Of a DNA stretch of 64,000 bases, positions 9,024-41,800 are shown piece by piece. Both the position numbers and the translations under genes were made by a program. Source of the DNA: Romanomermis culicivorax (lineage: Eukaryota; Nematoda; Enoplea; Mermithida; Mermithidae); NCBI GenBank assembly GCA_963922205.1, contig CAWUHX010000221.1, positions 62,001 to 126,000 of the forward strand. Direction: 5' to 3'. The notes under the pieces were generated by a model. The model did no database searches and was not told where the DNA came from. It was given only the letters and a program-made list of their open reading frames with translations. Within the stretch, counting starts at the first letter, position 1; each line of letters starts with the position of its first letter.

Positions 9024-9282
9024 TTCACCTCTTTTTAGTGGGCCTCAACCATGCACGAAAACTTTCATAGAAGCACATTGAAGTTTTAAATTTGGTCATC
9101 TGCACTTCAAAAAAACAATAAAAAACTTCAAGCAACGAATTCTCACCTCCGGCAAAAGTAAAGGATGTGTAAACCGCATAGTACTTAAAAAACTTCGTAA
9201 AGATACTGAAAGGTGACCATATCTATTGACTTCCTCATGGTTTAGAATCTTTCAACCCAAAAAATCGGAGAAATACCTTGTT

Positions 9283-10035: not shown

Positions 10036-11172
10036 GTTCAAAAATCCCAATAATGCTACAGGTATATTTGAAACTACAAAAAAATTGGTAGTGCATTATG
10101 CTGCAAAAAAGTTTTTTTTGAACCCATAAGTATTATATTAACAAAATTGGGGAATTTGGCGTTTTCCGGGACTTTGGACAACCATGTAATTGAATTGAGG
10201 CCATATTTCAAAAAAAGAAAAATTCGCATTTGAGATTACACCCTCAAGATGCTTAGGCCGAAGTATGGAGGTTGGATATGGCACACCGATTGCTGGGCAT
10301 GGTGGAACCGGGGGGCCTTAAAAAGTGCGTTTTTTACCTGTTTTTGGGGCCCCACCGAGCACCACTTGCAGATAGAGGCGAAATGACGAAAGGCACCCCA
10401 TAGTTTGCCCCTATGCCCGATATTATGCAAAAAACCCGAAGGTTCTAGCTCTTACCGTTTTGGCTCTAGAGGGGGGGGGACATGAAATTTGGGGGCCAAG
10501 TATATTATAGGTTGATGCTGTCGCGCCACCTATGATAACAACAATGGCAAAATGCAAGACGCAAGGCTAAAAAGAGGCAACACCAGTTAGGCCCAATAAT
10601 GAGTGACAAACTAACAAAACATGCCCTTTTAAAGGACTCCATAAACTACAGTATGCCTTGGGCGGAGTTAACACTCCCCCAAGCTAACTTCTGCAGCAGA
10701 AATCGTTGCAGAAGATGCCTATGGTCACATAGACATTTTCCAGTTCACAATGTTATGCATTGGGGAGAGTTTTCACTCTCCATGCTTAACATAGGAACCT
10801 CACTAGTGAGAATTTCAAACTAGTCGTTTCACGTTGCAAAATGCCGTTAGTTTTTACTGATAAAAGATGCACATTGTGCTCCAATTACAGCGATGAGCTC
10901 GGAGAGCTTATCTCTAATGGAAATTCTTGAGTAGCAGGTACATACCCTAGTCTACGTGTATAACAAAATAATAAATCGAAAGGGAAATAAAATGTGTGCA
11001 AAAGAAACAGAAATGAAACATAAAAAGTACACACATAAATTGCATGTAAAAATTATAAAAATGAAACGCAAAATTGATGCAGATTCCTGTAACACAAAAC
11101 GTAACGAAAAAACATAACAAAAATTGTGATGTGAATCACGTGACGTTCGACGAAATTCATCAGCACATGACA

Positions 11173-11634
11173 TGGCAGTCCTTCGAAAAAGGGAGTCCTC
11201 GTCCTTGTGCAGCATGTCCTTGGAGGTCAAACCTTCAGGTGATGGTGATGGTGGGTGGTTGACGGTCCAGCAGTTTTTCGGTGCATTTTGGCTTGTGGAA
11301 TTATGTCAATGGTGCGTGGAGTAGCTGATGTCAAGTGGAGATGCATGGGGTTGCTGACGTCAATTGATCCATTTGGTGAAGTTGCCAATTTTCAATTGAT
11401 TTGTGAAATCTGAAACGAGACTAAAAGAAAAATTTTAGGGGCAAGATATAGGCTATTGCACGGATGCGCCTGGATATGAGGCAATACCCTAATTTAGATG
11501 CATTGATCGCTGATCATTCTCTTCTTTACACTGCTATTCCAACATGGAACAGGAGTGGGTATTCTGTGAGGGGCATGGGGGTCCTTCGAAAAAGGACGAC
11601 CCTGTCCGTAAGTAAAGATGAGAAGAGCTGTTGA
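11173..11634 (-). other. 3' untranslated region and PPT area of the giant element
   Basis: Between the integrase stop and the 3' LTR. It holds two related blocks, GTCCTTCGAAAAAGGAC at 11581-11597 (a 6-bp hairpin) and GTCCTTCGAAAAAGGGAG at 11178, both resembling the segment just before the TRIM polypurine tract. It also has two CRE-like octamers (TGATGTCA 11326, TGACGTCA 11355). A clean polypurine tract next to the LTR is not seen. Confidence 0.5.
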
Positions 11635-13065
11635 TTACGGGTCGGGGACCTCAGCATCAAAATGTGGGTCAATGAGATCTTGTGTAAAATCTGGGTTTGT
11701 TGATGGAATCAACAATGGTGCTGTCTCGATGACCTGTGACGTGGAAGGTACCTCTTCTGCTTCAGTAGGTTGATCAGGTGACACGTAGTGTCTGAGCTGA
11801 TTGACATGCACAGTATCTTCTTGGTCAGTCTCAAGTCGAATGGTGACATTGGGATATGCCACATTTGTTACAGAGTAGGGCCCATCATAAATGGGCAGCA
11901 ATTTAGGCGTTAGGCCACGTTTGCTGATGGTGCGCAGTTTGAGCACCTGATCCCCAACTTTGTATGAGACATCTCGTGCCATGCAGTCGTATGACCTGGC
12001 ATAAGCCGCCTGTCATCTCTCGATTCGGCTCTGGATCAAGGTCAAGGCATTTGTAAAATGCCATTTGACCTCCATATTATAAGTAGAAACATCTATGATA
12101 TGGGCCAGAGGGTTGAAGGAGAGCGCCGCATCAACAGGTAGCATGAGCGTACGGCCATACATGAGCTAAAAGGGTGAATACCCTGTGGACTCATTCATGC
12201 TAATGTTGACGGCGAACACAGAATACGGCAGGTGTTCTTCCCATTTAGTATGACCTTGATGGACATACATACGTAACCGTGTAGCTAGCGTCTGATTAGC
12301 TCTTTCCACTTCTCCATTTGTCATCGGGTGATAAGCGGGGGAGTGGATTTTCTTAGTTGAACAAATTGCAGTGATTTCGGTCATCAGTTTGGATGTGAAA
12401 TCAGTGCCACGATCAGACTGAAGAATCTGCGGTGCCCCATGTCTGCAGACAATTTGTGTAACAAAAAGTCGTGCTATGGTTTGAGCAGTAATGTCTGGAG
12501 TAGGGAGAGCTTCGACCCATTTAGTAAAGTAGTCTATGAAGACTACAATAAAACGGTTTCCACTTTCACTAGTGGTCATTGGTCCCATACAGTCGACACC
12601 GACATGATGAAAGGGCCCAGTAATGGTAATCGGTTTCAGAGTTGCATAGGTCTTTTGTCTCGCAGGTTTATTCCGTTGGCAAAGATCACACCCCTGACAA
12701 AAGGACTTGACTTCCCCACTGAGGGAAGGCCAGTGGTACCTGCAGGCTATAAGCCTCGCGGTACGTTTCGCACCAAAGTGTCCAGCAAGAATGTTGTTAT
12801 GGTGAGCCTCAATAATGGTAGTAACCATTGACTGAGGGACGACAATCTTGTTGGACTCGCCTGTCCACTTCTGAAGGATGTTATCCAACAGGTGGTAGCC
12901 ATTAACATCCTTCTGGTCACCGTAGGGTTTTAGTGACTTAAGAACGGAGGCTAATTCTGGATCCTCAAATTGAGTTGCGAGAAGGTCATGGTGCTGCGCA
13001 TCCTGTGATGTCTCTGCATAAGACTCAGACCTCGCCAGGTGCTGAGCACCATCGGAGATCATCAT
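11635..13065 (-). CDS. pol: Integrase, broken by two in-frame stops
   Basis: Joins reverse transcripts into host DNA. Upstream part (13065-12166): an HHCC zinc region (H89, H96, C123, C126) and the catalytic core with D158 (VDCMGP), D218 (QSDRGTDF) and E254 (GEVERANQ), giving the D-x35-E spacing. An in-frame TAG at 12166-12168 (after STGYSPF) and TGA at 12013-12015 interrupt the frame. Beyond them, 11982-11635 encodes the C-terminal SH3-like/GPY domain (GPYSVTNV, VHVNQLRHY) and a Pro/Thr-rich tail. It begins in a frame shifted from RT with a 41-nt overlap, so expression would need a frameshift. Confidence 0.9.
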
Positions 13066-14611
13066 AACTTCTCCCTCGGGTCTGTATAGGGGAGTATTGT
13101 CGATACTCTCCCGGCAAGGGAATTAGGATCAGGAAGGGTGATACTGCATCAGCATTACCATTAGACCGACCTTTTCGCGGCCAAATTGTCAGTTTGAATT
13201 CAGCTAACGCGAGGCCCCACTGAGCTATCAGGGACGAAGGGTTCAGTTTCTCCAACACAGCCTTAACAGCAGTGTGATCAGTCTGAACGATCACCTCATG
13301 TTGAAAGAGGTAAGGTCGAAAGTGCTTGACGAAATGGACAACAGCAGGAGTCATTAACTCTGTAATAGTGTAGTTCTTCTCAGCTGCTGTTAACCCTCTA
13401 CTGGTGTATGCAACAGGATGGTCGTATCCATTATCATCTAACTGGCTCAGAACTGCTCCTATCCCCGAAATACTTGCATCAGTTTGAAGTATGAAGGATT
13501 TCGTAAAGTCCGGATGGCGCAGGACAGGGGGGTTCAACAACAGCCTTCGGAGTTTGTCGAACGCCACTCGCTGAGGTTTTGACCACAGGAAGGTAACTTC
13601 CTTCCATAAGAGCTTGGCCAGCGGCTCACTGAACCGAGCACAACCAGGGATGAAGCGCCTATAGTAAGACACAAGACCAAGAAAAGACTTGATGTCCCTG
13701 GTGTTCTGTGGGATGGGTAGATCCTGGACGGCAGCCAATTTGACTTTATCCGGCTCTAGTCCGTTCTGTGAGATAGGGTACCCTAGATATTCTACCTCAG
13801 AGTGCGAAAACTTGCACTTGCTCAGTCTGAGCTTCATCTCACCCTGACGGAGACGCGTAAACACATCCGTCAGGCGCTCAAGCATCTGGGTGTGAGAGTT
13901 TCCGAACACCAAGATGTCATCGAGATAGGTCAGTGCCGTGCGCCACTGCAATCCTGTGAGAAGCAGGTCCATGAGACGTTGAAACATCCGAGGTGCATTG
14001 CAAAGATCAAAAGGCAGATAGTTGAACTCGTAAAGTCCAATAGGCGTGTTAAACGCCATTTTCTCCTTGTCTGCCTCGGCAATAGGTATAGACCAGTAGG
14101 CGTTAGCCTGATCAAGGGTAGTAAAGTATTTCATACCCTTGAGTGTGTCAAGGATATCATCAATCCGTGGGAGAGGATAAACATCCTTTTTCGTGACCTC
14201 ATTAAGACCATGAAAGTCAACACACATCCGGTGTGACCCATTTTTCTTGCGAACCAGGACGGTGTTAGTAGCCCAGGGTGAGGTACTAGGCCAAATAATG
14301 CTTTTTTCCTGGAGTGCTTTGACTTCTTGTATGATGAGATCCTTTTCCTTGGGCGCGGTGCAGTAAGGGAAACGGCAGACTGGGCGAGCATCACCCGTGC
14401 TGATCTCATGGTGCACGAGGTCAGTGGAACCTGTGTCCTTTTCATCAATAGCATAGAGGTCACTGAATGCGACCAGTAGGTCGAGCAATGCCGTTTTATC
14501 CTGTGAGGTGAAATCTGAAGATATCACAGCATTTGTTTCAACCCACTTACGGTCAAGAATGGTATCAGACTTGACTGCTGATCCCTCTGAGGAATCGGTG
14601 TGCATCTGCAC
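13025..14611 (-). CDS. pol: Reverse transcriptase and RNase H
   Basis: 528-codon open frame. RT motifs: FTTLDQANAYW (catalytic D167), PFDLCNAP, LTYLDDILVF (YLDD at 229-232). RNase H follows: ILQTDAS (D378), ITEL (E418), QTDHTAVK (D445), SNGNADA (D488). Domain order and YLDD are typical of Ty3/Gypsy. Two conserved positions look substituted (PFG to PFD, VDYRGLN to VDFHGLN), both explainable by G-to-A changes. It overlaps the protease frame upstream by 47 nt in a different frame. Confidence 0.93.
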   Translation of the reverse strand: MQMHTDSSEGSAVKSDTILDRKWVETNAVISSDFTSQDKTALLDLLVAFSDLYAIDEKDTGSTDLVHHEISTGDARPVCRFPYCTAPKEKDLIIQEVKALQEKSIIWPSTSPWATNTVLVRKKNGSHRMCVDFHGLNEVTKKDVYPLPRIDDILDTLKGMKYFTTLDQANAYWSIPIAEADKEKMAFNTPIGLYEFNYLPFDLCNAPRMFQRLMDLLLTGLQWRTALTYLDDILVFGNSHTQMLERLTDVFTRLRQGEMKLRLSKCKFSHSEVEYLGYPISQNGLEPDKVKLAAVQDLPIPQNTRDIKSFLGLVSYYRRFIPGCARFSEPLAKLLWKEVTFLWSKPQRVAFDKLRRLLLNPPVLRHPDFTKSFILQTDASISGIGAVLSQLDDNGYDHPVAYTSRGLTAAEKNYTITELMTPAVVHFVKHFRPYLFQHEVIVQTDHTAVKAVLEKLNPSSLIAQWGLALAEFKLTIWPRKGRSNGNADAVSPFLILIPLPGEYRQYSPIQTRGRSYDDLRWCSAPGEV

Positions 14612-15290
14612 ACAACCATTGGTTAGGGTAGAGAACCACTGAGTGTGTACTTGGGTTAACTACCTGTAGGGGTATGTGACCATTAGTCACAGTACTCACA
14701 GTACCAGCAAAGTACACATTGCATTGCTGTCCCAAAAGAGGCTTAGGAAAAAAAGCTACCTCGGGCACAGTTGCATATAATGCAGGTACAGGTGCAGTAA
14801 ATTGTGTCAACGAGCGAGGCTCAAGGACAATCAACTCATGCAAGGGTAGTGCCCCACGAGCGGAAGGAGGATTGTGAATGAGGCCCTCACATGGAACCCG
14901 AAGTTCCTTGAACTGAAGAAAAGATTTCTCCCAGTTCAAGCTGACACAATTGAACCATCCGAGGAAGTTCGTCCCCAAGACTAGTTCAGCCGAACAATTC
15001 TCTTGAACTTGGACTTGAATCCGTTCAGAGACATCAGCCACTGTCACCGTGACGTAGGCAGCACCTAGCAGTAGAATCGGAGACCCATTGGCTGCTATGG
15101 GGCGAGCCCTAGTCTCTGTGAGTACCAAGTCAGGTAACTGAACTGCCAACTTGTGATCCAGGAGCGAGAAAACTGCTCCAGTATCAATTAGAGCTTTGGC
15201 CTCTACCCAATTGTTCAGTAGAACCTTGATATGAGGGGTCCTCATTTCAGTAGGGTAGAAAGCTGACACTACATGACGTGGGTCAGGCAC
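14565..15290 (-). CDS. pol: Aspartic protease (second protease) and downstream linker
   Basis: Retropepsin-like: KALIDTGAVFSLLD (DTG active site, about residues 37-39) and the later hydrophobic-hydrophobic-Gly segment AELVLGTNFLGWF. About 110 further residues rich in Pro and aliphatics precede the RT frame. It continues upstream in the same frame as 15324-15623 across a single TGA (15324-15326), so the ORF start given here is only the first open codon after that stop. Confidence 0.85.
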   Translation of the reverse strand: MPDPRHVVSAFYPTEMRTPHIKVLLNNWVEAKALIDTGAVFSLLDHKLAVQLPDLVLTETRARPIAANGSPILLLGAAYVTVTVADVSERIQVQVQENCSAELVLGTNFLGWFNCVSLNWEKSFLQFKELRVPCEGLIHNPPSARGALPLHELIVLEPRSLTQFTAPVPALYATVPEVAFFPKPLLGQQCNVYFAGTVSTVTNGHIPLQVVNPSTHSVVLYPNQWLCADAHRFLRGISSQV

Positions 15291-15855
15291 AGAGTCATCA
15301 AAACTCGACTCTGGCGCATTGGTTCACCTTGGTATTGGCAAACCAGTGCGTCGAAGTAATCCTACCAGAGCATGACCAACCGAGGCTTCCCGATTGGTCC
15401 CAGGAGTGGGATGAACCTGAACAGTAAGTACATGATCCGATCTTTCTCCTGAGCTCTGAGTAGCTCCCAATGATTCGACCTCAGCATCAGAGAGTGGTGG
15501 CACCTCTAGTACAGGGGATGCAGGTGCTTCAGAATCACTAGGCTTACGAAAACGGCCATTCTCTAGTGTAACCGGAAAAGCTCCAGGCGGGGGTTGAGGG
15601 CAGTTTGACCCTAACCTGGTCATAAAGTGACTGCTGGCCTGTCTAGAAGAGGTCCGGCTACCTCTGGTTGACCCATGGGATGAGGCAAGTGAGGAAGCTC
15701 ACAAAGGTGGCTGAGAAAGGGACAGAGTCCTTAATCTGGATCGGGACTTGGACCTGTGGGAGGCCCTTGATAGTGAACGTGTGTTCTCCCACCAGGGTTC
15801 GACCTGATCAATCTCGGCCGCTGTCAAAAGAAGTGGCAGTTCTACCGCGTTCTAC
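15291..15855 (-). pseudogene. Pre-protease polyprotein segment with stops
   Basis: 15623-15324 is open and encodes a Pro/Ser/Glu-rich linker (PPPGAF, PASPVLEVPPL), then TGA in frame with the protease. Upstream (15855-15624), the frame of the first protease continues with readable sequence (TLVGEHTFTIKGLPQVQVP) across TAG and TGA. Linker or disordered gag-pol region; function not recognised. Confidence 0.5.
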
Positions 15856-16194
15856 CTAGACCTGTTGTTGGTATTCAAACGTGATATTCTGGAATTGTTC
15901 TATAAAGTCCAATCCGAGAATCAGATTGACTGGTGCCCAGAAAGGAGACATAGTCTTACACACATGGAGATGTATATCCACTCTAGTGTGTGGCTGACGG
16001 GTCCCAGGCAACATGATCTCATACGGTCCCGATAGGAGGGTATGGATGGCTTTCCCATTGATACTCATTAATGGGTTAAAGTCATGATGTTGCTGGAAAG
16101 TCATTGCCGCCTTTGGACTTTCTTTAATCAAGGCTTTGTGAAGGCGTTGACTAATGATGGTCCGTGGACAACCAGTGTCAAGGAAAGCAGGAGT
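15856..16194 (-). pseudogene. First retropepsin-like segment, next to the env end
   Basis: Open for 113 codons from the TAA at 16195-16197. It shows FLDTGCPRTIIS (DTG) and LILGLDFIEQF (the second conserved retropepsin segment, LGxD/NF type), so it is a complete small protease fold by motif. Its start overlaps the last codons of the env-like frame in another frame. Two protease domains in one element is unusual; this one may be a relic of a recombination. Confidence 0.7.
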
Positions 16195-17959
16195 TTATCC
16201 TGTCTAACTGGGTTGGCACATCTTTCTGCACGTAGTGAAAACCTACCCAACGCTGAACTTTCCGGAGGAGGTTCAGCGGAGGGTATTGGCTAACAAACCG
16301 AACCTGCCTTTTCCGCAGGTGGTAACTGAGGTAATAGGAGATCCCAACGTAGATAAGAAATCCTGTACCAGCTAGCACTGCCAGCATGACTAGTGTGTTA
16401 AAGATCAACTGCACTGGTCCGCTCGAAAGAGACTGTAAGCCCTGTATGAGGTTGTGCTGTTGACCAGTAATCACACGGTTTGCTGCCAGACCAACACCTT
16501 CCAGTGAGGCTTTGATGTCAGTCCCTACCCCTGCAACCGCTTGATAAATAGTATCTGGTTGAAGGGATAGACCAGAAGTATAACTTACCAACCGGTTCAA
16601 GACCGCTTCAATTTGCTCAGTCTTGTAAACATACTGTTTACAGAAGGCAAAACTTGAGGGGGTCATTGCGAACTGATCGCGAAATAGTGCAGGAGCGTCA
16701 AAGTGAGTGACGTTGAAGCATTGTTTCCAGAACAGTTCAAGCGGAATGTGGCTCACATGGACCATGCCAGACTCAGTAAACCAGCCCGATCAATTTCGGA
16801 AAATCCCCATAAAGTGGTGGTCACACGGCACTTTTGGACTGAATTTAGTGAGATCTGGGCCACTGGGGGTGGCAAAATAAATGGTACCGCCAACCTGTAC
16901 AGGTAGATACTTGTAACAGGTGTCCCCCACTCGGTACGAATGGTAGACATAAGTGGCCTTGACCTTTTGACACAGCCATATTGTCAGTGCTTCACCCGTA
17001 AATTCTGCCGTCAGATCATTCCTTTGCAGGAATGCCCGGGCTCCTAATGTAGGGTCAAAACGAAGCAACTACCAAGTCAGATCAGGGTAGCGTTGAGCAT
17101 GAGAACACAACTCAAGCCACATGAACCGAGAATTGTTAATTTCCGATTCCTTGATCTGCTGAGCCAGGTAGTTCAGTTTGGCATTGACGGGGTCAGGACG
17201 GGAGTCCTTCGCCGATCCAAACAACCTTTGGGTCAAATTGAATCTTCCGTGGATGCGTAGAAGAAGACCCTGATCTGTTCGCACTGTGTTCAACCAGAGG
17301 TCCGGACACAACCGAAACACGCGAGAGTTTCCTGGGATCTTCAGGGCAACCTGCAAATCATTGATGATGATATGGTTCCCTGATACAGACGCAGTGTAAT
17401 TACCCTGAGGTCGATAATGACACTGTGCTGTAAAATTTGCGGCAGGCCAAACAATTACCCCATCGAGAGTAGTGCATTGACCTGCAGTGGGACTGCATCC
17501 ACCTAAATCCCCTAAGGTACTTAGAGCTGTAGTGCCATCCCACCAAGCGACCTGTCCCTCCTCGATGAAGAGGATAGTCACTGTCTTGCAGACGTCATTG
17601 CAGCACCATGAGTACATCACCTCCAGTGTTTGGTTAGTGCTATAAAAGCCAGGACGTATCTCCACAAGCTTTTGTATACCAAACACCTTCGTGTGATGTG
17701 CCAGTGTACACACCACAGGCACTAGATGCTGAGTGGTGATGTCGTCTGCAGTAATGCCCCTAGATCCGAAGAAACCAGTGTTGGTTCACACCTTACGGTT
17801 TTGCAAAGTACACTTCCATGCTAAAGTAGTGATTGGAACAGAAATAGGAACATACACTGTAACATTCATGCCTCGTGGACTCCACGAAGATTTTGGTGGT
17901 TTGCATTTAACTTTTTGAGGTAGCTCAAGTGGATGACTGCTTCTTGAAAGACCACAAAA
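16178..17959 (-). pseudogene. env: Env-like membrane glycoprotein with three in-frame stops
   Basis: One reading frame of about 590 codons containing TGA 17786-17788, TAG 17069-17071 and TGA 16790-16792. Seen: many cysteines, several N-glycosylation sequons (NFTA, NYTA, NLTQ), a C-terminal hydrophobic anchor of about 22 residues (about 16327-16393, VMLAVLAGTGFLIYV core) and a basic cytoplasmic tail with YPPL. Layout is that of a viral type I fusion glycoprotein. The middle segment (a cysteine followed by a DPTLGARAFLQRNDL-like stretch) reminds me of mononegavirus-like glycoproteins found in other retroelements, but I cannot confirm the class. A signal peptide is not in frame; a Met-Leu-Leu start lies one frame away near 17990. 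Located 5' of pol, not 3'. Confidence 0.7.
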
Positions 17960-18101
17960 TTAGTACTGAGTAGCATGTGTTGCAGAGCCCATTCCTAAGA
18001 ACAGTAGTGTCACAAACGCCGAATTTATTATGTACAAACTATTTACAAACAGTGCTTGTAATTATACACCAAAATGTACAGTTTTCACCCATCGGGGGGC
18101 T

Positions 18102-18869
18102 TCATTCTTTGTCGTCATCGTCATCGGACGATATCGGGTCCTCTCTGGAGAAGTCGATGACCAAGCCTCCACAGGGGTGGACTTCGCGAAGAACGCCAAT
18201 CTTCGGGGACCGCGGGATGGTTGCCGTCAGAAATGGCGACACCTCGGTGACGCTGACGTCATTGCTGATGGCGCGCAATGGTTCTCCAAAGGCGTTGGCG
18301 ACTGGTTGCTGTTGAGCAATCGCCACCAGTGTTTGGGCTCCCGTCCTTGTTGTTGTCGGTGATGTGGCAACAACTGCTGTGGGCCGCACTTTGTGACTGG
18401 CTTCCTCCACAGCGCGGCGGACGGCGTCCACTGCGGGCAATGACGGTTCACCATCCAACAGGATCTTGTCCACCCTGGTGGCGCGAATAGTTCCGTCGGC
18501 AATAAACTCCAGCGCTCGTCGAGCGACATCGGGGTCCCAATATCCGCAACGCTGCTGGCACTGAGAGCACCACGTCGGCGGCCGTAAGCGCCTCAACCTT
18601 TAACGGCTCTTTGAGTAGCACCCATGGGAGGTGCGGATACTTTTTGGCCAAATCTGTTGACCAAAAATCTGTAAAAAAATCATTAAAGCCGGTGACTTAT
18701 AAGGATATCTGATTTTCAGACCTGAAATGTCAGAAAAAGAAGGTAGTTTACCTATCAGATTCATTGATTCCAATTGACTGACAACCTCCAATGTGGAGTC
18801 CGTAGGAATTCCGGGCGGCGGTCCTTGGTTGATAAAACGGGCGGGAGGCACCGGTGTACCTTCCGTCAG
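18102..18869 (-). pseudogene. Unrecognised accessory ORF between gag and env
   Basis: 18851-18600 continues the gag frame after one TGA (FINQGPPPGIPTDST). An intron-like segment with GTAAAC...TTTTTACAG ends lies at about 18665-18751; removing it keeps the frame (SMNLI joined to DFWSTDLAKKYP). A frame change near 18550 then leads into the 18596-18102 frame, which is well formed ([27 protein letters not shown]) and ends in an acidic DDDDDKE tail. No family recognised; could be a gag extension, a captured cellular exon set or a viral accessory protein. Confidence 0.45.
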
Positions 18870-20583
18870 TCAATACGACGCGATTACGCTGATGTCGCCA
18901 GTCGTTTTCAGTGTCGTTGACGGGTTTACCTTGACCAGCGTTGCGTATTTTGGTGGTGGCGGTGGAAAGGCTGATGACGGAGTCGATGCCGAACCCACTG
19001 CGGCAGCTGAAAACCCAATACTGATTACACAGACAGGATAAGACAGTTGTGAGTGATCCGCCAGATGTTCAGCCAGAACTTCATCATCCAGATCAAATAG
19101 ATTTGGATGCAGAAGATTGTGGGTAGCCCCTACAGCATTATTTTGCCGTGGGGGTGACCGATATTGGTTCCCTGTCCTGTGAGGAGTTGGATTGGCATAA
19201 CGCCAAAAATTTCCACTTGCCCCCTGAGGAGAGTAACCAGGACTACCAAAGTTAGTCTCACCAGGCAATGTCGAAATCTGATTTGGGCAGGCCGAAGCCC
19301 TGTGCACTCGTAACTTTCGGCAATGCCGGCAGGGTCTATGGCATCGGTCAGTCGGGTGCAGCCTCGTTCAACAAAAATAGCAATGGCTGGCGCCGGTGGT
19401 GGTGGCCGTGCAAGGGCTGGCGCTATCGGGATGTTGGGCCTGGCAATTAGCGTCGTTGTGGGTGCAGCGTCCATGGTAGGAGCACATCTGTAAATGTGCC
19501 CCTGACGGGCGATCGCTAGCAGTTTGGACACGCGTCGATGTTGTCGTTGACGGCTTCAAATTTCTCGGAGGCAGCACCATTTGCTGAGCTGTAAGTCGGG
19601 CAACATGAGCCATAAGCCGGGCCATCTCCGATTGTAAACGTCGAATTTCATCGGACAGCATTGCCGATGGAAGTTGAGCGGTGCCCCTTTGATTGGACAT
19701 TGACTCGACGTTGTTGGCAGTCCTTTGTTCTGAAGAGAAAACAGCATTAGATGGGGCAGTATACCTAATCTCATCCTGAAAAATTTGTGATTCTGCGTAA
19801 CAGGCTGCTTTGAGAGTCTCCTCAAGAGTTGTGAACTCCCTGAACTTAATACTATCTCGAAGGACTGGTTTCAACCCTCTCAGAAAGATAGGTTTTACAA
19901 TTGAATCCCTAACATCAGTCGGGAGATCTGGATAAGCCACCCTGGACAGACTCTTAAGGTGCTCAAGATAAACTATCGCAGACTCAGTCTGCTTCTGCAG
20001 ACGATCCTGGATCAACTGCTGATGTAGATCTAAGTCACGCCCTACTGGAAAGTCTTTCCTCAGAAAAGCTGTGAATTCTTCATAGCGGGTAGGCTGCGGA
20101 GTACCACTGCTAAAGTCCCAGTAGGATGCGAGAGCAGGACCTGTTAGGTAAGACTCCAGAAACGCGATTTTATATGCATGATCCGTTTCTGTTACCCCTT
20201 GAAGTGTAAAGAAATGGGTCAAGTGAGATATAAAATCCATTATAGACTCACCAAAAGCACCTGAAAAGGCAAGAGGGGCCATGAAGCTGGACACAGGAGG
20301 GTGCCTTCTGCCATTCATAGCCTCTAGCTTCTGGTTGAGCGGTCCAAGGGCATTCTCAAATGCAGCTTGGACCTTATTCTCAATCTGTGAAGGTAGATCA
20401 ACTTCTGACTTCGTAGTTGAGAGTTCGTCTTCCTGTAAGGTAGCTAAGACTGCTAATCGTGCCTGTGAAGCTATTCGATCAAACTGAATAGAGAGGGGCT
20501 CACTTGTCTGCTTAAGCTTAATACTAAGGCGACAGGAATGTCTAGGTGTCTCTATTTTGTGAAAGTGGAGTAAGTGTTACTTT
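18870..20583 (-). CDS. gag: Gag polyprotein (interrupted)
   Basis: Capsid/nucleocapsid precursor. The frame is open from 20583; the first ATG is at 20318. The region shows the retrotransposon gag fold: FSGAFGESIMDFISHL, YLTGPALASYWDF, then a helical block through LKSLSRVAYPDLP. C-terminal to it are a coiled-coil-like EIRRLQSEMARLMAH and Cys/His motifs (CSYHGRCTHNDANC, then CRHC...H...C). A TGA at 19368-19370 splits the nucleocapsid; the same frame runs on to another TGA at 18870-18872. The 5' open stretch without ATG could be a leader fused by splicing. Confidence 0.8.
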
Positions 20584-23038
20584 TTTAGTCGCTTGGCGAA
20601 GAGGCCGGGAAATTATGAGATCGTTTACGCAAGGGTGTTTTGAGGCTTTAACACCTGTTCTTTACAATAACTAGCGACCACTCAACTATGGGGCTAGAAA
20701 AGAACAAGGTTTTAGCCCTCAGAACGGCCAGAATGAAAGATAGGTTGACTCAGAAGGGAATTTATCTGGTCACCTATGTACTTAGAGAGGGGCTAACCCG
20801 AGTGTAAAGAGAGGGAAAAGTTATACCCAAACTTTAGAAATTAATGGGGCTAGACCCAGTTATTTGAACCAAAAGTAAATAAATTTGAATAGAAATGGTG
20901 ATTTCCCAACTGTAAAAGAAAGGATGATGTGAGGACCTACGGATAAACCCGCTCAAAAGGGAATTTTATTTGGAGGTTAAGTCCGTTATGCTAGTTTACA
21001 AACTTTGGATATGGGGGGGCTCATAACCGACAAAGTCCTACTCACCAGGAGTAGCGCATGGAGTAGCTTAAGAATTAATAAGTAAAGGGGGACAACTTAA
21101 AGTAAACTTAATGGGCGTAAATAGATAGGGACAAAATTAGTTTACAAACCAGATTGCGCAAAGGGGATGCGCTATTACGCAATCGGCCTCACTCACTAGG
21201 AGCAATTGCGAACTCTGAAAATGACTAGACAGGAGGATGACTTTAGCAACAATACGGTGCATTGTTGTTGCTGACGTCAAGGACTGAAGCCGGAATGGCC
21301 GACCAATCCTAGTGCAACAACACCAGCCTCTGCTGTTGCAGACATCAGAAAGACAGTGCCATACGGTCACCATCCCGCAATAACAACCCGTTATGTTGCC
21401 ATTGCTGATGTCAGAGGTAGAGCCGGAGGGCCACCCACCCCTTAAAGCAACAGCAAGGGATGCAGCTGTTGCAGACGCAGGGGGGAAGACACAGAGAACC
21501 ATCAACCCCTTAAATGGCCACATGCTATGTGGCGATTGCTGACGTCGGAGGCTTGACCCCGCTAGTCACGCCTCAGTGCAACAGCAGCATGTGAGGTAGG
21601 TGCGGACGTCAGAGGGAGGGTCGTCAAGACACATCACCTCAGAACAACAAAACTATAAGTTGTTGTTGCTGACGTCAGTGGTCAGGATTGATAAGATCGT
21701 CACCATGTGCAACCACTTAGAGAGAGAAAAAGAAGGAGAAGACCGTACAGTAGTGGAAAAATAATAAAAATGACCTACTGAATGGTTGCCAACTATGACG
21801 TATGTGTGACCGGTAAAAGAGAAAGTTTTTTTTTGTTGATAAATTTGAATAGAATTAAAGAGAATGCTTTTATTTATTTGTTTTTGATAGGAAGGAGAAA
21901 GGATACATTTTAATTTGTTTGTTTAGAAAGCAAAGAGAAAGAAAAAAATGGGTTATTAGTTTTATTTGAGTTGATTTTTTGGGATAAGAAATTTATTGGG
22001 TGAAAAAGTTATTATAATTGGGTCACATGTTACGCATAGAAGACTGAGAAAATAAAAAAAAGTAAAGTAAATAAAATAAAATTTGAGGCCCAAGAGATAA
22101 GCGATGTGATCTGCTAAGTACAGTGTTATATGTGTCAACAGTAAAATTTTGGCTTGTTTAGCCGGAAAAATGAGCAACTTGGCTAGTGCTCAATGAAGAT
22201 AAGAAAAAGTTTAAAAAAAGTGTGTTGACACACATACCGGACACAGATAACAAATCACGACCACACTTGACGTCCAGAATCAAGAGTGGAAGGTGTACTG
22301 TACCTTGTGATCGGAGATCCGGAAACTCTCAGTGGCTGTGAAAACCTCATGGGCTGTGATACTCAAGTACCTGTACCCAGGTATACTGTAGTTAGAGTAT
22401 GTGCAAATCGCAGTCATACTGTAACCAAATAGCCATACGGCGGTACAGTAACCAATCCGATCACACGCAGTGGATGGGGTCCAATTAATGGAAAAATGGA
22501 AAAAAAGAAAAAAAATGAAGCTCAGAGGAGATTTACCGCAGAATACTCTATTGACTCGACTCTGGGAATTTATGACTCTTGGGGACCAACTCTGGGGAAA
22601 ATCTGACACCAGGGGGATATATTAAGGCTTATGGGCATTACTGTACTCATAAGGCATTAATTTACACACAAGAATCATTAATTTAATCACACGTGGGGCA
22701 AATCCCGACCTACAGTAATCAAACTCTACTCAAATGCAGTGCTATCTGAGTTGGCATTAGACTCAAACCTAAGGGCCTATTCCTACCTAAGGGGTAGTGT
22801 ACCTTCTTACATGCGTATCCGCTTGCATGAGGGCAAAAATTTTCATCCTAAGGGTCAGTAATCCCACTTTGAATGCGAATCAGCTGACCCGAGAGAGGTG
22901 TCCCCACTCAAGTGGCGATTCTCATGATCTGAGAGAGGTTTCCCCACTCAAACCAAAATTTCACTTAATTGAAAGAGGTATTTCACTCAAAAAGTAAAAG
23001 GTTCGTTCCCAAGGACTGTGAAGTCAGACTTAAAGGTC
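20584..23038 (-). other. Long 5' leader of the giant element
   Basis: About 2.5 kb between PBS and gag without a long ORF. Contains the CRE-like repeat array (21255-21690), an AT-rich zone at 21740-22260, and short internal repeats GAGAGAGGT..CCCCACTCAA near 22890-22950. No coding content recognised. Confidence 0.65.
21255..21690. promoter_or_regulatory. ~66-bp tandem repeats each with a CRE-like TGACGTCA
   Basis: TGACGTCA or one-mismatch relatives occur at 21272, 21340, 21406, 21473, 21540, 21604 and 21670, a spacing of 64-68 bp. Surrounding units share runs of CAA/TTG and Gly-Cys-rich blocks. TGACGTCA is the palindromic site of CREB/ATF-type bZIP factors. Position in the leader suggests an internal enhancer or insulator array, comparable in layout to the repeated Su(Hw) sites of gypsy. 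Function is inferred. Confidence 0.7.
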
Positions 23039-23056
23039 AATTTTTCAGCCTCGCCA
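23039..23056 (-). promoter_or_regulatory. Primer-binding site of the giant element
   Basis: Minus-strand TGGCGAGGCTGAAAAATT directly abuts the 5' LTR end (...AATGTGGCA). The TGG start complements a tRNA CCA end, predicting a primer tRNA ending CAGCCTCGCCA or similar. The first ten bases equal the TRIM PBS at 28173. Confidence 0.75.
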
Positions 23057-23849
23057 TGCCACATTAAACGAAGTGGAGCCATGTCACATTAAATGAAGTG
23101 GGTGATCAGTCACATTGACGGGAAAAACCCGTACCATATCCCATAGGAAATATGGCCATAACACTGTAGGTGACATGCTGTGACCCCGTGGGGTGGCTCC
23201 AGTAATGTTCTTCGTCTCGGGAACCTAACCCAGCTGGTACTACTACAGGTAAACCTATGGTGTACCTCGGCCTTCTCCTAGGGTTATGCTGTACAATAAT
23301 GGACAACGCGGCTGGGTCAAGGGTGCCAATCCCTAGTCCTCACTCACTGGGAATGAGGGACGGTGCCATTCAGAGAATGGCCTACTGTAGGGGACCCGAT
23401 TGTTAACCTAAATCCCCTTATTGGCCCTGACCTTAAGGGTCTGAGGGCTTTCTTAACTGAGGGTACTTTTGAGGGAAACTAGCTTAGGGGAGACTCCCAC
23501 AAATATACCCTCAACAACAATAACCCCTGAGAAGACTAACTAATCCTCTTCTTAACCTACTCGGCCCTGGGCCACGGCTTCTGGGATCAAAGCGGGGGTC
23601 CTGCGGACGGCGATGAACCTGTACGGGAATCCGAGCGATTTGGGGTGGGGTTCTGTGGCTGCGGATCATCAGGTGGTGGTAACAAACGTTTCCTCAGTGA
23701 GGGCGACGGGGTTCCTGATTAAGGGCGACGGGGACCAGTGCCTACAGTCGGGTTACTGTAGTGGTAACGTATAAAAAGTTCGGAGGCGAGAATATGCTAA
23801 TTTTATTCGATGAGCGGCGAACGCAGTTGACAATAAAACAATATAATAA

Positions 23850-26800
23850 CTAGTTTATTAGAAAATGCCCCGATGGGGCAGAAAAAAGGAGAATATACTT
23901 GCTTTGACAGATGCCATGGTAGAAAAAGAAGTGGACTAGATTTTTGAGAACTTGGGTCAAAGTTGGAAAAAATTCACTTTCTTTATATTGGATTTCCATT
24001 CTTCCTCAAAAAAATCCATATCTGTGAAGAAGTATATTCTGCAGCATCGTGCATTTTGTCCTTCCTGGCATCAACTACAGCAAAATTTTTCTATATGAAA
24101 ATTATATGCACACGACTTCAAATGTACGGAAACGGTAAACTTATAGCATTCTAACTCACAACCGATTCAAAACTCCTGCCTCTCACACTAGCTGGAAAAT
24201 AGTGAGGGAGGCATATTACAGTCATTTTCAGAACTATAAAGAAACCTGAGGTTCGTTGCACTAACCCAACATGAGGATAATCTCAACATCGGGATTAAAT
24301 TGACGATCCTGAGGTTGAGCTAATCGCAATGTTCAAATTTTTCTCGTCCAAAGCACAAACAACACTCACTTCAGGATTTACTAATACTGAGGTTTAAGTT
24401 CGAATTTGGGAATTTCAGAAATTTTTATATTTATTTGCTTTAGAGATAAGAAAATTATGCGAAAATTTTAGTGCAATCCGACAGCTCGAGCAGAGGATAA
24501 TCTCGACATTGAGCTCGTTATAATCCTGATGACATTCAAATTATACCAGACTTGAGATCAAACTGATTCGCCTTTTTGTTCGAGATTACCTTGCGCTGGA
24601 GCTTAGACCAACTTAGTGCAACTGGGCCTTGGTTACAGTCATTGGGCACTGATATGCAAATGGGATCCAGCCGTGCCTATATTAGGGGTGTCGCTATATT
24701 AGATATTAGGGTGTTCTCCCCGACTCTACTGGCACTCCCATAGCAACAAAACAACTTTTTTGAAAGCAGGACGAGAGCGACAGAGATCGGCGAAATTGCT
24801 TCCCATCTGGAAACCTGTAAAAGGGCTCTTTCTGCAATTTCAGTTTAAATCCAAAAACTGAGAATGATGCTATTTTGTTGCATAGTTAAATAAAAGAGAA
24901 TAAATTTGTTTATAGCTTGTAATCAGTAGAACTTATGGAGTGAATTTTATACGATATGTTATACAATATATAAAATGAGTGAATGAAACGTGTCTTGCAC
25001 AATCGATTTAGTTCTTAGAAGACTTTGTGCTGTACCTCTTTTTTCTAAAAAAGCTGAATGGGATTTTATGTGCCACTTTCCCTCAGTTGATTCCTTTTGT
25101 TGACACCAAATTCAGTAAAAATGTTTAACACAGTTGGAAGCAAACATGTGTGAGAGGGGACACGGGGGTATAAACTTCCACAAGGGTTTTGAAACTGGAA
25201 AATTTGTTATGCAAAAAATTTTTTGGTCAACTTTTTTTGAATTTTTTGTCTCACAAAATGCTAAAACACCAAGGTCCACGCCTGTACCCTCCTAAAAATT
25301 TCAGAGATGCACATTGGTTGGAAAGTGTGTTGATGCACTCAGCTGCAGAATATACTTTTTCACAGACATAGACAATTTTTTTGAGAAAGAATGATAATCC
25401 AATATAAAGGAAGTGAATTTTTTCCAACTTTGACCCAAGTTCTCAAAAATCTAGTCCACTTCTTTTTCTACCATGGCATCTGTCGAAGCAAGTATATTCT
25501 CCTTTTTTCTGCCCCATCGGGGCATTTTCTAATAAACTAGTTCACCTCTTTTTAGTGGGCCTCAACCATGCACGAAAACTTTCATAGAAGCACATTGAAG
25601 TTTTAAATTTGGTCATCTGCACTTCAAAAAAACAATAAAAAACTTCAAGCAACGAATTCTCACCTCCGGCAAAAGTAAAGGATGTGTAAACCGCATAGTA
25701 CTTAAAAAACTTCGTAAAGATACTGAAAGGTGACCATATCTATTGACTTCCTCATGGTTTAGAATCTTTCAACCCAAAAAATCGGAGAAATACCTTGTTT
25801 TACACAAATGACTTTTTTCGTGTAAACTGACTCCATTCATTGAATTTCCCATGGTCAGAAACATCTTCCCTAAAAATCGCAGAAATACATTTGTTCGCAC
25901 TCAATATGAATTCGTGTATAAAGTGATCACTTTCATTAAATTCCCAGTGGTCGAAAACCCCTCCCACAAAAAACTCACGAAAACAGAATTGGTTAAATCC
26001 GGAATAATTTTTTTGTGTAAAGTGACACATCCATTGAATTCCCCGCAGTCAAAACCCCTTCCATAAAAATCACGAAAATACGATTGTTTACACCCGCGAT
26101 AGTTTTTTTTGTAAGATGATCGCATTCATCAAATTCTCTGTGATCGAAAACCCCGCCCACCGGGAAATCACGAAAATACGTTTGTTTACAACCGGGATAA
26201 GTTTTTGTATAAAGTGATCGCATTCATCAAATTCCCCGTGGTCGAAAACCCCTTCCAGCAAAAAATCACGAAAATACGTTTGTTTACACACGGGATAATT
26301 TTTGGTGTAAAGTGATCACATTCATTGAATTCCTCGTGGTCGAAAATCCCCACCGCAAGAAAATTACGGCAGTACGCTTGTTTATACTGTGGATAATTTT
26401 TTTGTGTAAAGTGAGGACGTCTATTGAATTCCCCGTGGTCGAAAACTCCCTCCACTGAAAAATCACGGAAATACGCTTGTTTACACCCGGGATAATTTTT
26501 CGTGTAAAGTGACCGTGTCCATCAAATTCCCAATAGTCGAAAACCCTTGCAGTTCAAAAATCCCAATAATGCTACAGGTATATTTGAAACTACAAAAAAA
26601 TTGGTAGTGCATTATGCTGCAAAAAAGTTTTTTTTGAACCCATAAGTATTATATTAACAAAATTGGGGAATTTGGCGTTTTCCGGGACTTTGGACAACCA
26701 TGTAATTGAATTGAGGCCATATTTCAAAAAAAGAAAAATTCGCATTTGAGATTACACCCTCAAGATGCTTAGGCCGAAGTATGGAGGTTGGATATGGCAC

Positions 26801-27054
26801 ACCGATTGCTGGGCATGGTGGAACCGGGGGGCCTTAAAAAGTGCGTTTTTTACCTGTTTTTGGGGCCCCACCGAGCACCACTTGCAGATAGAGGCGAAAT
26901 GACGAAAGGCACCCCATAGTTTGCCCCTATGCCCGATATTATGCAAAAAACCCGAAGGTTCTAGCTCTTACCGTTTTGGCTCTAGAGGGGGGGGGACATG
27001 AAATTTGGGGGCCAAGTATATTATAGGTTGATGCTGTCGCGCCACCTATGATAA
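23850..27054. mobile_element. Captured composite transposon inside the 5' LTR
   Basis: Second copy of the 7333-10538 unit, made by reverse transcription of the LTR and not by a separate insertion. It includes the inverted-repeat module (about 23850-25540) and the 98-bp tandem array (about 25800-26551). Confidence 0.7.
25800..26551. repeat. ~98-bp tandem array in the 5' LTR
   Basis: Copy of the array at 9283-10035, differing by one T in a homopolymer (near 26395). Confidence 0.8.
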
Positions 27055-27679
27055 CAACAATGGCAAAATGCAAGACGCAAGGCTAAAAAGAGGCAACACC
27101 AGTTAGGCCCAATAATGAGTGACAAACTAACAAAACATGCCCTTTTAAAGGACTCCATAAACTACAGTATGCCTTGGGCGGAGTTAACACTCCCCCAAGC
27201 TAACTTCTGCAGCAGAAATCGTTGCAGAAGATGCCTATGGTCACATAGACATTTTCCAGTTCACAATGTTATGCATTGGGGAGAGTTTTCACTCTCCATG
27301 CTTAACATAGGAACCTCACTAGTGAGAATTTCAAACTAGTCGTTTCACGTTGCAAAATGCCGTTAGTTTTTACTGATAAAAGATGCACATTGTGCTCCAA
27401 TTACAGCGATGAGCTCGGAGAGCTTATCTCTAATGGAAATTCTTGAGTAGCAGGTACATACCCTAGTCTACGTGTATAACAAAATAATAAATCGAAAGGG
27501 AAATAAAATGTGTGCAAAAGAAACAGAAATGAAACATAAAAAGTACACACATAAATTGCATGTAAAAATTATAAAAATGAAACGCAAAATTGATGCAGAT
27601 TCCTGTAACACAAAACGTAACGAAAAAACATAACAAAAATTGTGATGTGAATCACGTGACGTTCGACGAAAATGTGACA

Positions 27680-27683
27680 AAGT
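27680..27683. repeat. Right 4-bp target-site duplication (AAGT)
   Basis: Matches 6536-6539 exactly, closing the 21.1-kb insertion. Confidence 0.8.
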
Positions 27684-27985
27684 AAAATCGGAATTTCACC
27701 ATCATCTTCTATAGGCGCAGTTCTATTCTTCCACATCGGGCCTGGTCTCTTGATGGCGGAATGATTTCGGAACGAAAATCATATTGGAGTAATAAGTTTT
27801 TGTTTTTTACTTTACGGGGTTTTAAATATTTCACACAATGTCAAACTGTTAATCACAGACATTGTAATATTGCCAAGAAATATTCTTCCGCGACCCCGGT
27901 CATTTTTGTTGAGTCATGGTCAGGATGATGCCTGCCCTGACATTGGCCAGTGATGGCACAGCTCCGGCGCCACCCTGGAGGCCTT
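27684..27985. other. 300-bp spacer between the giant element and the TRIM
   Basis: Unique-looking sequence with no gene. Its right end (CCTT at 27982-27985) is the left target duplication of the TRIM. Confidence 0.5.
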
Positions 27986-28036
27986 TGTCACATGTCGCAC
28001 GTCCGTACATCACCCCTTCGTACCAGTCGCAACACC

Positions 28037-28108
28037 GGCTCGGTAGTTCAATCGGCAGAACGCTGCACTATAGTCAACGAGATCCGGGTTCGAATCCCGG
28101 TCGAGCAA
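28037..28108 (+). ncRNA. tRNA-like pol III unit 1 within the TRIM LTR
   Basis: 72 nt resembling a tRNA: acceptor arms GGCTCGG/TCGAGCA (6 of 7 pairs), D arm GTTC/GAAC, T arm CCGGG-TTCGAAT-CCCGG. Box A TAGTTCAATCGG (28044-28055) and consensus box B GGTTCGAATCC (28087-28097) are present, with T5 at 28111-28115 as a pol III stop. The anticodon stem does not pair (CTGCA/CAACG), so a working tRNA is unlikely; the nominal anticodon would be ATA. Confidence 0.75.
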
Positions 28109-28110
28109 TA

Positions 28111-28115
28111 TTTTT
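28111..28115 (+). terminator. Pol III T5 terminator after tRNA-like unit 1
   Basis: TTTTT three bases after the tRNA-like end, repeated in all three LTRs (28385-28389, 28659-28663). Confidence 0.6.
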
Positions 28116-28172
28116 CGAAAACGGTGTTTGGCGATGGTTACGATGACAACGCGTTTACCCATTTACGTGTCA

Positions 28173-28259
28173 TGGCGAGGCTTGGATTGGTCCCACAATG
28201 GTGGGCCGCAGAACCTGCATCTTCAACGGACGAGGTCGTCCTTCTTTCAAGGGGGGGAA
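28173..28259 (+). other. TRIM internal domain 1 (PBS and PPT)
   Basis: PBS TGGCGAGGCTTGGATTGG at the left end, polypurine tract CAAGGGGGGGAA at 28249-28259. The segment GGACGAGGTCGTCCTTC before the tract matches the pre-LTR blocks of the giant element at 11178 and 11581. Confidence 0.8.
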
Positions 28260-28446
28260 TGTCACGTGTCGCACGTCCGTACATCACCCCTTCGTACCAG
28301 TCGCAACACCGGCTCGGTAGTTCAATCGGCAGAACGCTGCACTATAGTCAACGAGATCCGGGTTCGAATCCCGGTCGAGCAATATTTTTCGAAAACGGTG
28401 TTTGGCGATGGTTACGATGACAACGCGTTTACCCATTTACGTGTCA
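28260..28446 (+). repeat. TRIM LTR 2
   Basis: Same 187-bp unit, offset 274 bp. Begins TGTCACGTGTCG. Confidence 0.88.
28311..28382 (+). ncRNA. tRNA-like pol III unit 2
   Basis: Identical to unit 1 including box A, box B and the following T5. Confidence 0.75.
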
Positions 28447-28533
28447 TGGCGAGGCTTGGATTGGTCCCACAATGGTGGGCCGCAGAACCTGCATCTTCAA
28501 CGGACGAGGTCGTCCTTCTTTCAAGGGGGGGAA
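28447..28533 (+). other. TRIM internal domain 2
   Basis: Second copy of the 87-bp PBS-to-PPT segment. Confidence 0.8.
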
Positions 28534-28720
28534 TGTCACGTGTCGCACGTCCGTACATCACCCCTTCGTACCAGTCGCAACACCGGCTCGGTAGTTCAAT
28601 CGGCAGAACGCTGCACTATAGTCAACGAGATCCGAGTTCGAATCCCGGTCGAGCAATATTTTTCGAAAACGGTGTTTGGCGATGGTTACGATGACAACGC
28701 GTTTACCCATTTACGTGTCA
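28534..28720 (+). repeat. TRIM LTR 3
   Basis: Third 187-bp LTR, ending GTGTCA and followed by CCTT, the right target duplication (28721-28724). Confidence 0.88.
28585..28656 (+). ncRNA. tRNA-like pol III unit 3
   Basis: As unit 1 with one change in box B (AGTTCGAATCC), which may weaken TFIIIC binding. Confidence 0.7.
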
Positions 28721-28897
28721 CCTTTCAACATGAGCAAATTTTTCAAATCTAACAGGAATCGCGGAGACCGTACATTTTCCGAACTTCTAGAAAATGATTC
28801 ACAATATCAGAAATGATTGTTTAGAAATCGTCAACGGCGGAAGAATAAATAAGAATGAGTGAGAAGCGAGTTGGGCTCATAATCGAAGACAAACAAG

Positions 28898-38882: not shown

Positions 38883-41800
38883 CTTGAAGAGAATTACAGA
38901 TAAGAAATGGAAACTTCCAAGGATTAATCAAGTTCATTTAAATTGAGTTGGGGTCCCTTACCAAAAAAATTCCCAAAATTAGAAAAAAATGTTTTAAATG
39001 TGACAAATCAAACTGCACGAGCTGCCGGGAAAAATATTCAAATTACACAAACTTCCCACTCCAAAAAATCACATTAGCTCACTAAAAAATGTCATTGAAT
39101 TTAAAACATACCCAACAAAGATTGACGAGGTGTAATATCTTTGGCCATAAATTCATCGCCTATTATACCACTTTTACGTTTCCGCACAATGTCATCCAAA
39201 AAAGACTCTAATGTTTCTGGCATTTTGATTTCTCCGACGTAGGTTCGATCTTTTTGTGCAGGGACGAGACATGACCCGGCTAAAATTGAGAGCAAAGAAT
39301 TTCATGCAGAACATTAAATCGGTAACTGTTCATACTGCAGCACCGAATTATTTCCTGGAATAGGTACTTCGCGAACATACCTGTAATAAGAGGGTATGTT
39401 GAGAGTGGTCACAGCAGCCACGTCAACTACGGGTTGTTGCGAAATGAGAGCGCTTTCCCCGCTGCTCGGTTGGCTCAGTTGGTTAGAGCGTGCGGAGGGT
39501 AGCCGCAAGGTCCCGGGTTCAAGTCCCGGACCGAGCTTAACTTTTACTGAAGCCCTGAGTAGCGGGAAAAGGTTGCCTCAACAGGTATTGGGGGACCCCA
39601 GTGTTTTTTGCCGGAGGCAAATGAAAATTTTTTGGGGCAAACGCAATCGAGGTAGTCATTTGTACATGCACAAATGGCTCTTTCCCCATTTAGGAAAGAA
39701 AATTTTGCGGATAAGGTACAGAAAATATGCATTTTGGTGCATTCTAAAAGCTTATAATCTCAAAATTTTCAATAAAACTTTAATAACCATTAATTTATAT
39801 TGCCTGGCTCAGACACGGCTTTCAGAATGTCTACCTTCACCTATCATTTAATGTATAATAGTTTTCATCATCTCAAACATATTATCTCATGTTCTAAGTG
39901 GTAATCTTCAATATTTTATAATATTTAATGAAGATTCACAGTTTTTCCTTGAAACATTTTTTGAGAAAGATCAATACGTCAAGTCTCAAAACTTTTTGAA
40001 GCAATTATTCCTTTCTTAACGTAAAATAAATTTGGAAGCTTCATGGAAGTAGTTTTGGGAAATTTTTACTCTTCCACTCATATCTTCTCAGCCAAGTTTA
40101 TGAGGGTTAATGAATAAATTACTGGTTTTAAAATTCTTCAAGTAATAAAATTCTAAAAATTACGACTTTTGAACACATAATTCGAATCTAATCCTGGAAA
40201 TAAATGTTTGGAAAATTGATTTTCCAGCGTCGCCGAATGTCAATAGACAAAAAATTTTTCCGGCGCATAGCGCCGGAAAAATTTACATTTTTTGGGGTTT
40301 TCACTTGTCATCATAGAGGACTTTACCATCGATTTATTATCTAATGCAAATTCATTATGTTATTGGATAGTTTTCTAGAAAATTTGTTCCACAATGCTTG
40401 TAAATTAGACTTGAAACTCGAAAATTTTAATTTTTTGCTCAATTTTAATGAATTTTTTTCGTAGTTATAAACCAAATTTGAAAATTGCACTGATTCGGTT
40501 ATTAGTCTCTGGTCACGACGAAGAGAAACACAGGCTACTTATTTATACCTATTTTTGCTATGTACAAATTGTACAAATGAAGAATTGGCTCCCGTTTGTA
40601 CATGTGCAAATGGGTCATGTAGAAAAAAAAACCCGACCCATCCCTAAACTTGGTGGAACTTATACCCAAATGTCAGGCACGCCCAACTCGAAAAAATTAG
40701 GAAAAAGGTGGATTTTTGGTGAAAATCTTCGATTTGTATCCTACTTTTAAGAACCCCCAAAAATTTTGGGTTTACCCAACCACACCAATCTCATCGGACC
40801 TCTTGCAGGTATGTGCGCGGAGGCAATTACGTATATTTGACTGAATACCTACTGAGAGGCTAAGTTGATGAAAACTCAAGCATTGATAGAGATTTTGACT
40901 AGTCTCATCAAGACTTCTGATGCTAAACATGGAAAGTCAAATGTAGCTGGTCTGATCAGCTCAATTATCGAGAAATAATGACTGAAAAAGTTTTAGTAGT
41001 TCATTTCCATAAGTTTACCTTGTCTTTTAGTTTGGAAACCTTTACCTGTAATTGGGGGAGGGGTTGGTTTTTGGGGGAGAGGGAGGGTATATGGTTGGCC
41101 AAGTCGAGGAGGGGTTGGGGGGAAGCCCAACCATATACCCAACGCTATCCCCTAACTTAAAAAAATTTGAAAAAATTGGCAAAAAAAGTGCCTTTTTAGG
41201 AAAAATTTTCGGGTTTCTCCCACCCCCCAAAACTGGTCGGACCCCTCACAGGTATGCTTGCTATGCAAGTCTTGCTAGACATTTCATGACTCAAAATCCC
41301 ATCGTTGATACGGAAAGAACATTTTAAAGATATTCATCAACTCGCTATATTGGGACTCAATCAATATGGGCAGAATGATTGCGGAATTACAAGTAAAATA
41401 TTACGCGGTATCTACCACACACGCGTTTGTTGATTAGATGAAATGAAGAAAAACGGTTCCTGCAATACAGATGCATCAGATAATAATGAACTTCAGAAAC
41501 ATGATACTCCTATAAACATTAACACTCGGTTCCAAAATCAAACGACAATTCGTTATTATACGCCAGTGCACCGCTCGCCTTATATTCCTACCTTGTTGGA
41601 AAAGCGACAATAACGACGTATCCTGCACTATTTCCTTGAAGTCTCGATCTAGGAGACATTTCTTTTCATTCGTGACAGGTATGTCCTCTCGTGATTTAGA
41701 GATCCAAGTATCTCCAGTAAACTTGTCCAGTGAACTATGCTGTGCCTGATTTTCATTCTCGTAAGGACTGCTGTCGTAAATACCCGGAATATTAATCGTT

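Follow-up and report, generated by a model that had tools for sequence, protein, structure and literature searches.

The tandem retrotransposon at positions 27986-28720 of the window (the whole 64-kb stretch of DNA analysed here) is, judged by its sequence, a member of Helenus, a kind of element published in 2024. Its host, Romanomermis culicivorax, is a mosquito-parasitic mermithid nematode. Helenus, named by Kojima 2024 (PMC10886601), comprises TRIMs with tRNA-derived sequences in their LTRs, and the hosts given for it are six animal phyla, fungi and one plant, Selaginella (PMC10886601). Taken as a whole, we read the locus with high confidence as a Helenus-type TRIM tandem that has a pol III-type, tRNA-like promoter in its LTRs and receives Ty3/Gypsy help in trans. 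The initial annotation had proposed a TRIM with a tRNA-like pol III-type unit in an animal host, which holds, and a new parallel invention, which does not, such elements having been published as Helenus in 2024 (PMC10886601). As far as these searches show, what is new is a tRNA-bearing TRIM in Nematoda. The terms 'nematod', 'Romanomermis' and 'Caenorhabditis' are absent from the whole text of PMC10886601, Nematoda is absent from its Table 1, and no nematode Helenus was among the papers listed in searches of the open-licence literature.

Six features of Helenus were found at this locus: its size, tRNA sequence in the LTRs, a PBS and PPT, a 4-bp duplication, a Gypsy-like PBS, and a PBS that is not complementary to the element's own tRNA-like sequence (best local score 5 for an 18-base PBS). 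In the published description, animal Helenus elements have 4-bp duplications, Gypsy-like PBSs and conserved box A and box B sequences, mostly without tRNA function; elements below 1000 bp were screened for, and the reported sizes are 311-1263 bp (PMC10886601).

The order of parts is LTR-INT-LTR-INT-LTR, with LTRs of 187 bp and internal regions of 87 bp (Table 1); one unit measures 461 bp and the whole tandem 735 bp. LTR1 differs from LTR2 at 1 of 187 positions, LTR2 from LTR3 at 1 of 187, and LTR1 from LTR3 at 2 of 187, while the two internal regions, which begin with TGGCGAGGCTTGG and end with AAGGGGGGGAA, are identical. The PBS-like start of the internal region is TGG, within the ten bases TGGCGAGGCT. 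CCTT ends at 27985 and restarts at 28721, and the middle LTR has no flanking CCTT. Because the duplication is found only at the outer ends, the tandem is probably the product of unequal LTR-LTR recombination. No Pfam match was obtained in any of the three stop-to-stop frames (134-206 aa) scanned over 27986-28720, and no further copies of the small element were found elsewhere in the window. These results bear out most of the anatomy described in the initial annotation, namely three 187-bp repeats with TG...CA ends, CCTT on both sides, a PBS abutting LTR1 and a G7 tract abutting LTR2 (TGGCGAGGCT and AGGGGGGGAA, at the edges of the internal region), and no coding capacity. The anatomy is indeed that of a TRIM; where a single element had been described, however, there is a tandem with two internal regions, the middle LTR being common to both units.

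Table 1. Coordinates of the small tandem element, the neighbouring Ty3/Gypsy element and the second tRNA-bearing LTR within the window.
Feature	Position	Strand	Remarks
Ty3/Gypsy element, candidate helper	6540..27679	-	duplication AAGT 6536-6539 / 27680-27683
Gypsy LTRs, ~4.6 kb	6540-11172 and 23057-27679	-	
TGGCGAGGCT directly after Gypsy 5' LTR	23047..23056	-	
Left target-site duplication CCTT	27982..27985	.	
LTR1, 187 bp	27986..28172	+	TGTCAC at start, GTGTCA at end
tRNA-like unit in LTR1, 37.8 bits	28037..28108	+	72 nt
Box A TAGTTCAATCG	28044..28054	+	consensus from general knowledge
Box B GGTTCGAATCC	28087..28097	+	consensus from general knowledge
T5, pol III terminator-like run	28111..28115	+	next run of T4 or longer on the same strand is in LTR2
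Internal region 1, 87 bp	28173..28259	+	no recognisable coding sequence
Putative primer-binding site start TGGCGAGGCT	28173..28182	+	ten bases identical to Gypsy 23056-23047
Polypurine tract AGGGGGGGAA (G7)	28250..28259	+	abuts LTR2
LTR2	28260..28446	+	tRNA-like unit 28311-28382
Internal region 2	28447..28533	+	identical to internal region 1
LTR3	28534..28720	+	tRNA-like unit 28585-28656; box B first base changed (28635)
Right target-site duplication CCTT	28721..28724	.	
Probable solo LTR, second family, 187 bp	39397..39583	+	TGTTGAG...CTCAACA; GGTA 39393-39396 / 39584-39587
tRNA-Thr(GGT)-like core, 54.7 bits	39464..39537	+	within LTR 39397-39583

All three LTRs gave an Rfam tRNA match, at 37.8, 37.8 and 32.2 bits (curated cut-off 29). 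Box A, TAGTTCAATCGG, starts at 28044, 28318 and 28592, a loose box A pattern has one extra match per LTR (28071, 28345 and 28619), and T5 runs follow at 28111, 28385 and 28659, with no other run of at least four T on the plus strand between successive T5s. Box B, GGTTCGAATCC, is present at 28087 and 28361, and the copy in LTR3 (28635) begins with A, not G. Thus the 72-nt unit with box A and T5 does occur in every LTR, as first annotated, whereas the consensus box B claimed for every LTR is found in two of the three. The Rfam alignment draws the acceptor, D and T stems as largely paired and does not draw the anticodon stretch as a stem, and on the sequence itself this stretch shows no pairing, in agreement with the unpaired anticodon stem reported initially. 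That tRNA function was given up while the boxes were kept is likewise probable, as far as the unformed anticodon stem indicates. The predicted fold of the unit is no cloverleaf and is not clearly above chance (z -1.34, with 20 of 200 shuffles equally stable). ARAGORN called tRNA-Ile at 28037 and 28311 and left the third unit uncalled.

At the Rfam cut-off, the only matches in the window were to tRNA; a relaxed scan of the whole window (E up to 5) gave 11 matches, 4 of them tRNA and the 7 others below their cut-offs, with no 5S rRNA match in the LTR. Exact-pattern searches with the tRNA-like stretch were negative both in viral contigs (34 bases, 0 matches) and in contigs of bacterial and archaeal genomes (27 bases, 0 matches), the two being the wrong type of collection for an animal element.

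This arrangement of signals suggests how the element might be transcribed and mobilised. Transcription by pol III would begin immediately upstream of box A in the tRNA-like unit of one LTR. With T5 right behind that unit, most pol III transcripts should stop at ~80 nt; in a minority of rounds the first T5 would be read through and transcription would stop at the T5 of the next LTR. Because no other run of four or more T lies between the T5s on this strand, the resulting RNA, ~360 nt long, would have the form R-U5-PBS-INT-PPT-U3-R, with an R of ~80-85 nt. LTR elements require a terminal repeat of this sort for their reverse transcription. A Ty3/Gypsy element that uses the same primer site, either that at 6540-27679 or a relative, would carry out reverse transcription and integration in trans.

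Part of this proposal could be wrong if the TRIM is driven by pol II from its LTR and the tRNA-like unit is a relic or passenger, for example a SINE insertion, that no longer serves as a promoter. The closeness of T5 behind the unit and the changed box B of LTR3 would both fit such a history, and the account of Helenus in PMC10886601 describes its pol III function as not validated. Box A and box B are nevertheless intact in LTR1 and LTR2, and the loss concerns the anticodon stem, which should lie outside the promoter. We therefore regard a pol II-driven element with a defunct tRNA-like unit as unlikely, though it deserves serious consideration.

Two further explanations start from the tRNA likeness itself. 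The tRNA matches and their head-to-tail repetition could reflect tandemly repeated tRNA pseudogenes or SINEs, an LTR element in looks only; however, a plain array predicts neither TG...CA limits, nor a PBS and PPT at the LTR edges, nor a single outer pair of CCTT, nor ten PBS bases in common with a Gypsy element, and we hold this origin to be very improbable. The two tRNA-Ile calls might even be taken to mark a working tRNA gene cluster, an idea that is scarcely credible against an unpaired anticodon stem, a third unit that ARAGORN did not call and a predicted fold that lacks the cloverleaf.

On the favoured reading, a Helenus-type TRIM mobilised in trans, the helper could be the Ty3/Gypsy element at 6540-27679 or a relative. 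This neighbour lies 306 bp from the small element, its LTRs are 99.8% alike over 4616 bp, and it has the domains of a capsid of Ty3 type, an aspartic protease, RT, RNase H and integrase. All ten first internal bases are common to the two elements, and outside the small element the decamer TGGCGAGGCT occurs once in the window, at the Gypsy LTR junction. Because TGG is expected at most PBSs, we estimate the chance of this agreement, seven further bases at a fixed place, at ~1 in 16,000. A shared primer tRNA would suffice to explain the decamer match, which thus points to a common primer site and is not proof of partnership. We know of no animal tRNA whose 3' end fits TGGCGAGGCT.

Beyond the primer site, the likeness between the two elements is slight. 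Towards the 3' end of the Gypsy element, upstream of its 3' LTR, are sites similar to the last part of the small element's internal region, with local alignment scores of 38 and 43; in a random control of just under 3000 window stretches the 99.9% point was 34.1 and the maximum 40, so that the score of 38 falls below the best random one, and this 3'-end likeness is suggestive only. Searched with blastn at E 1, the internal region gave short matches to the Gypsy element beyond the PBS bases (the best at INT 54-80, 81%, E 0.047), and the small element's LTR gave no match, a short likeness at the tips being visible by eye. The adjacency of the two elements may be a coincidence.

The Gypsy copy has peculiarities of its own. 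The first bases of its two LTRs (11130-11175 and 27650-27680) disagree, the rest being 99.8% identical, and this copy may therefore have an origin less simple than a plain insertion. A block of ORFs is located between gag and pol (16178-17785, minus strand); one of its pieces (16793-17068) is similar to a viral fusion glycoprotein of the Monjiviricetes type (PF24664, E 6.3e-10), and two other scanned pieces of the block had no Pfam match. Two minus-strand ORFs are aspartic-protease-like, one weakly (15856-16194, E 0.065) and the other at 14565-15323. The two protease-like ORFs and the position of the glycoprotein suggest that the genes stand in an unusual order or that the element is composite. 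A protein search with the RT ORF returned 3773 matches at E up to 1e-20, most of the best 120 being without a name, and in viral contigs the same ORF had 2 pattern matches, 0 of them confirmed. A diverged copy of the Gypsy LTR, in inverse orientation and in pieces of 81-85% identity that include a 98-bp tandem repeat array, is found at 57861-61184.

A second tRNA-bearing LTR lies 11 kb further along from the small element. The sequence at 39397-39583, whose limits were set by eye, has a 7-bp terminal inverted repeat and contains box A, box B and a T4 run. The fold predicted for its tRNA-Thr-like unit is a cloverleaf (z -2.08, with 8 of 200 shuffles equally good). tRNAs carry U33 before the anticodon; in this unit the base is G. 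To our knowledge, the GGT anticodon is not used for Thr in eukaryotes. The candidate was at one stage taken for a tRNA-Thr gene or SINE at 39464, an interpretation that was dropped once the enclosing LTR limits and GGTA had been found.

A first-order model gives ~0.0013 expected enclosing pairs of 7-bp inverted ends with a 4-bp duplication. The window holds 4 such pairs against 0.5 expected, 3 of them without tRNA (35778-36113, 37075-37371 and 58959-59085). Of 4000 cores of 74 bp taken at random from the real sequence, 29 lay within such a pair, a number that may include the site itself and other pairs. In view of both this excess and the enclosed random cores, the true chance is greater than the 0.0013 of the model. 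Outside the tRNA part, the LTR families of 27986 and 39397 have no evident likeness. We conclude that 39397-39583 is probably a solo LTR of another Helenus family, with moderate statistical support; since it is a single copy and has no internal region, the assignment is probable rather than proven.

These LTRs may bear on a known peculiarity of the host genome. For the first R. culicivorax genome, 1,443 predicted tRNAs were reported, of which 382 were pseudogenes, with 676 for Thr, and a similar Thr surplus was reported for two Meloidogyne species and Pristionchus pacificus (PMC3890508). In rust fungi, certain tRNA predictions are mostly Helenus LTRs (PMC10886601). This dominance, together with the LTRs of the window, leads us to hypothesise from a single locus that the same cause operates in R. 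culicivorax, where Helenus-type LTRs may account for part of the tRNA-Thr excess. A stronger version, that several independent Romanomermis Helenus families explain much of the surplus of 676 tRNA-Thr, that the published expansion is largely retrotransposon, and that Meloidogyne and Pristionchus are perhaps alike in this, is tentative, and we would put it at somewhat less than an even prospect. LTRs of this kind would be a simple and testable explanation of inflated tRNA numbers in the genomes of nematodes.

The rest of the window is consistent in composition with its host: G+C outside the Gypsy element is 33-43% per 2 kb, and that of the R. culicivorax genome is 36% (PMC3890508). The joined exons of a receptor-kinase-like gene at ~156-5568 are 95% identical to an R. 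culicivorax protein over 51% of the query, the other five protein matches being at 26-30%. Pfam scans of 10 other ORFs of the window, aimed at a host gene, gave three useful matches, two to pieces of a kinase and one to a BED zinc finger, and the ORF at 29015-29584 had no match in the homology search. An inverted repeat pair, ~90% identical (30320-31170 and 36478-37420), has partial copies near 48.6, 49.5 and 50.8 kb and represents a dispersed family.

Several small LTR elements invite comparison. A Gypsy element of Culex, which has a pair of tRNA-like copies at the edge of LTR and PBS, is not of this kind (PMC3286476). Animal TRIMs are also known from harvester ants (PbTRIM), taeniid tapeworms and bivalves; the opening parts of abstracts on them do not mention a tRNA-bearing LTR. 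The Ajax TRIMs of nemerteans resemble the present element in having a small-RNA-derived promoter in the LTR, and differ in that this is 5S rRNA-derived and in their 5-bp duplications. Cassandra is the known pol III precedent, with transcripts of tandem units, and likewise has LTRs with a pol III promoter and terminator as well as tandem LTR-INT arrays (PMC7215508); in contrast, it is 5S rRNA-derived and found in plants. Against identity with Cassandra or Ajax, no 5S rRNA-derived sequence was found in the LTR (Rfam, E up to 5).

The likeness to Helenus is the closest in kind, extending to LTRs that contain a tRNA-like sequence with both promoter boxes, to a PBS and a PPT, a short non-coding interior, 4-bp duplications and tandem arrays, which are on record for the zebrafish Helenus LTR-11_DR (PMC10886601). 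Helenus is also named in a single sentence of a meeting report from 2026 (PMC12859917). The present element differs in its host phylum, Nematoda, and in the candidate Gypsy helper that adjoins it; the evidence for that helper, a shared PBS, is of the same kind as the PBS match on which Kojima's case for Gypsy helpers is built (PMC10886601). Tandem 27986-28720 thus extends tRNA-bearing TRIMs to a phylum unlisted in the defining paper, and whereas for Cassandra no helper is known according to the same paper (PMC10886601), here the element has as its immediate neighbour a candidate Gypsy helper that shares its primer site.
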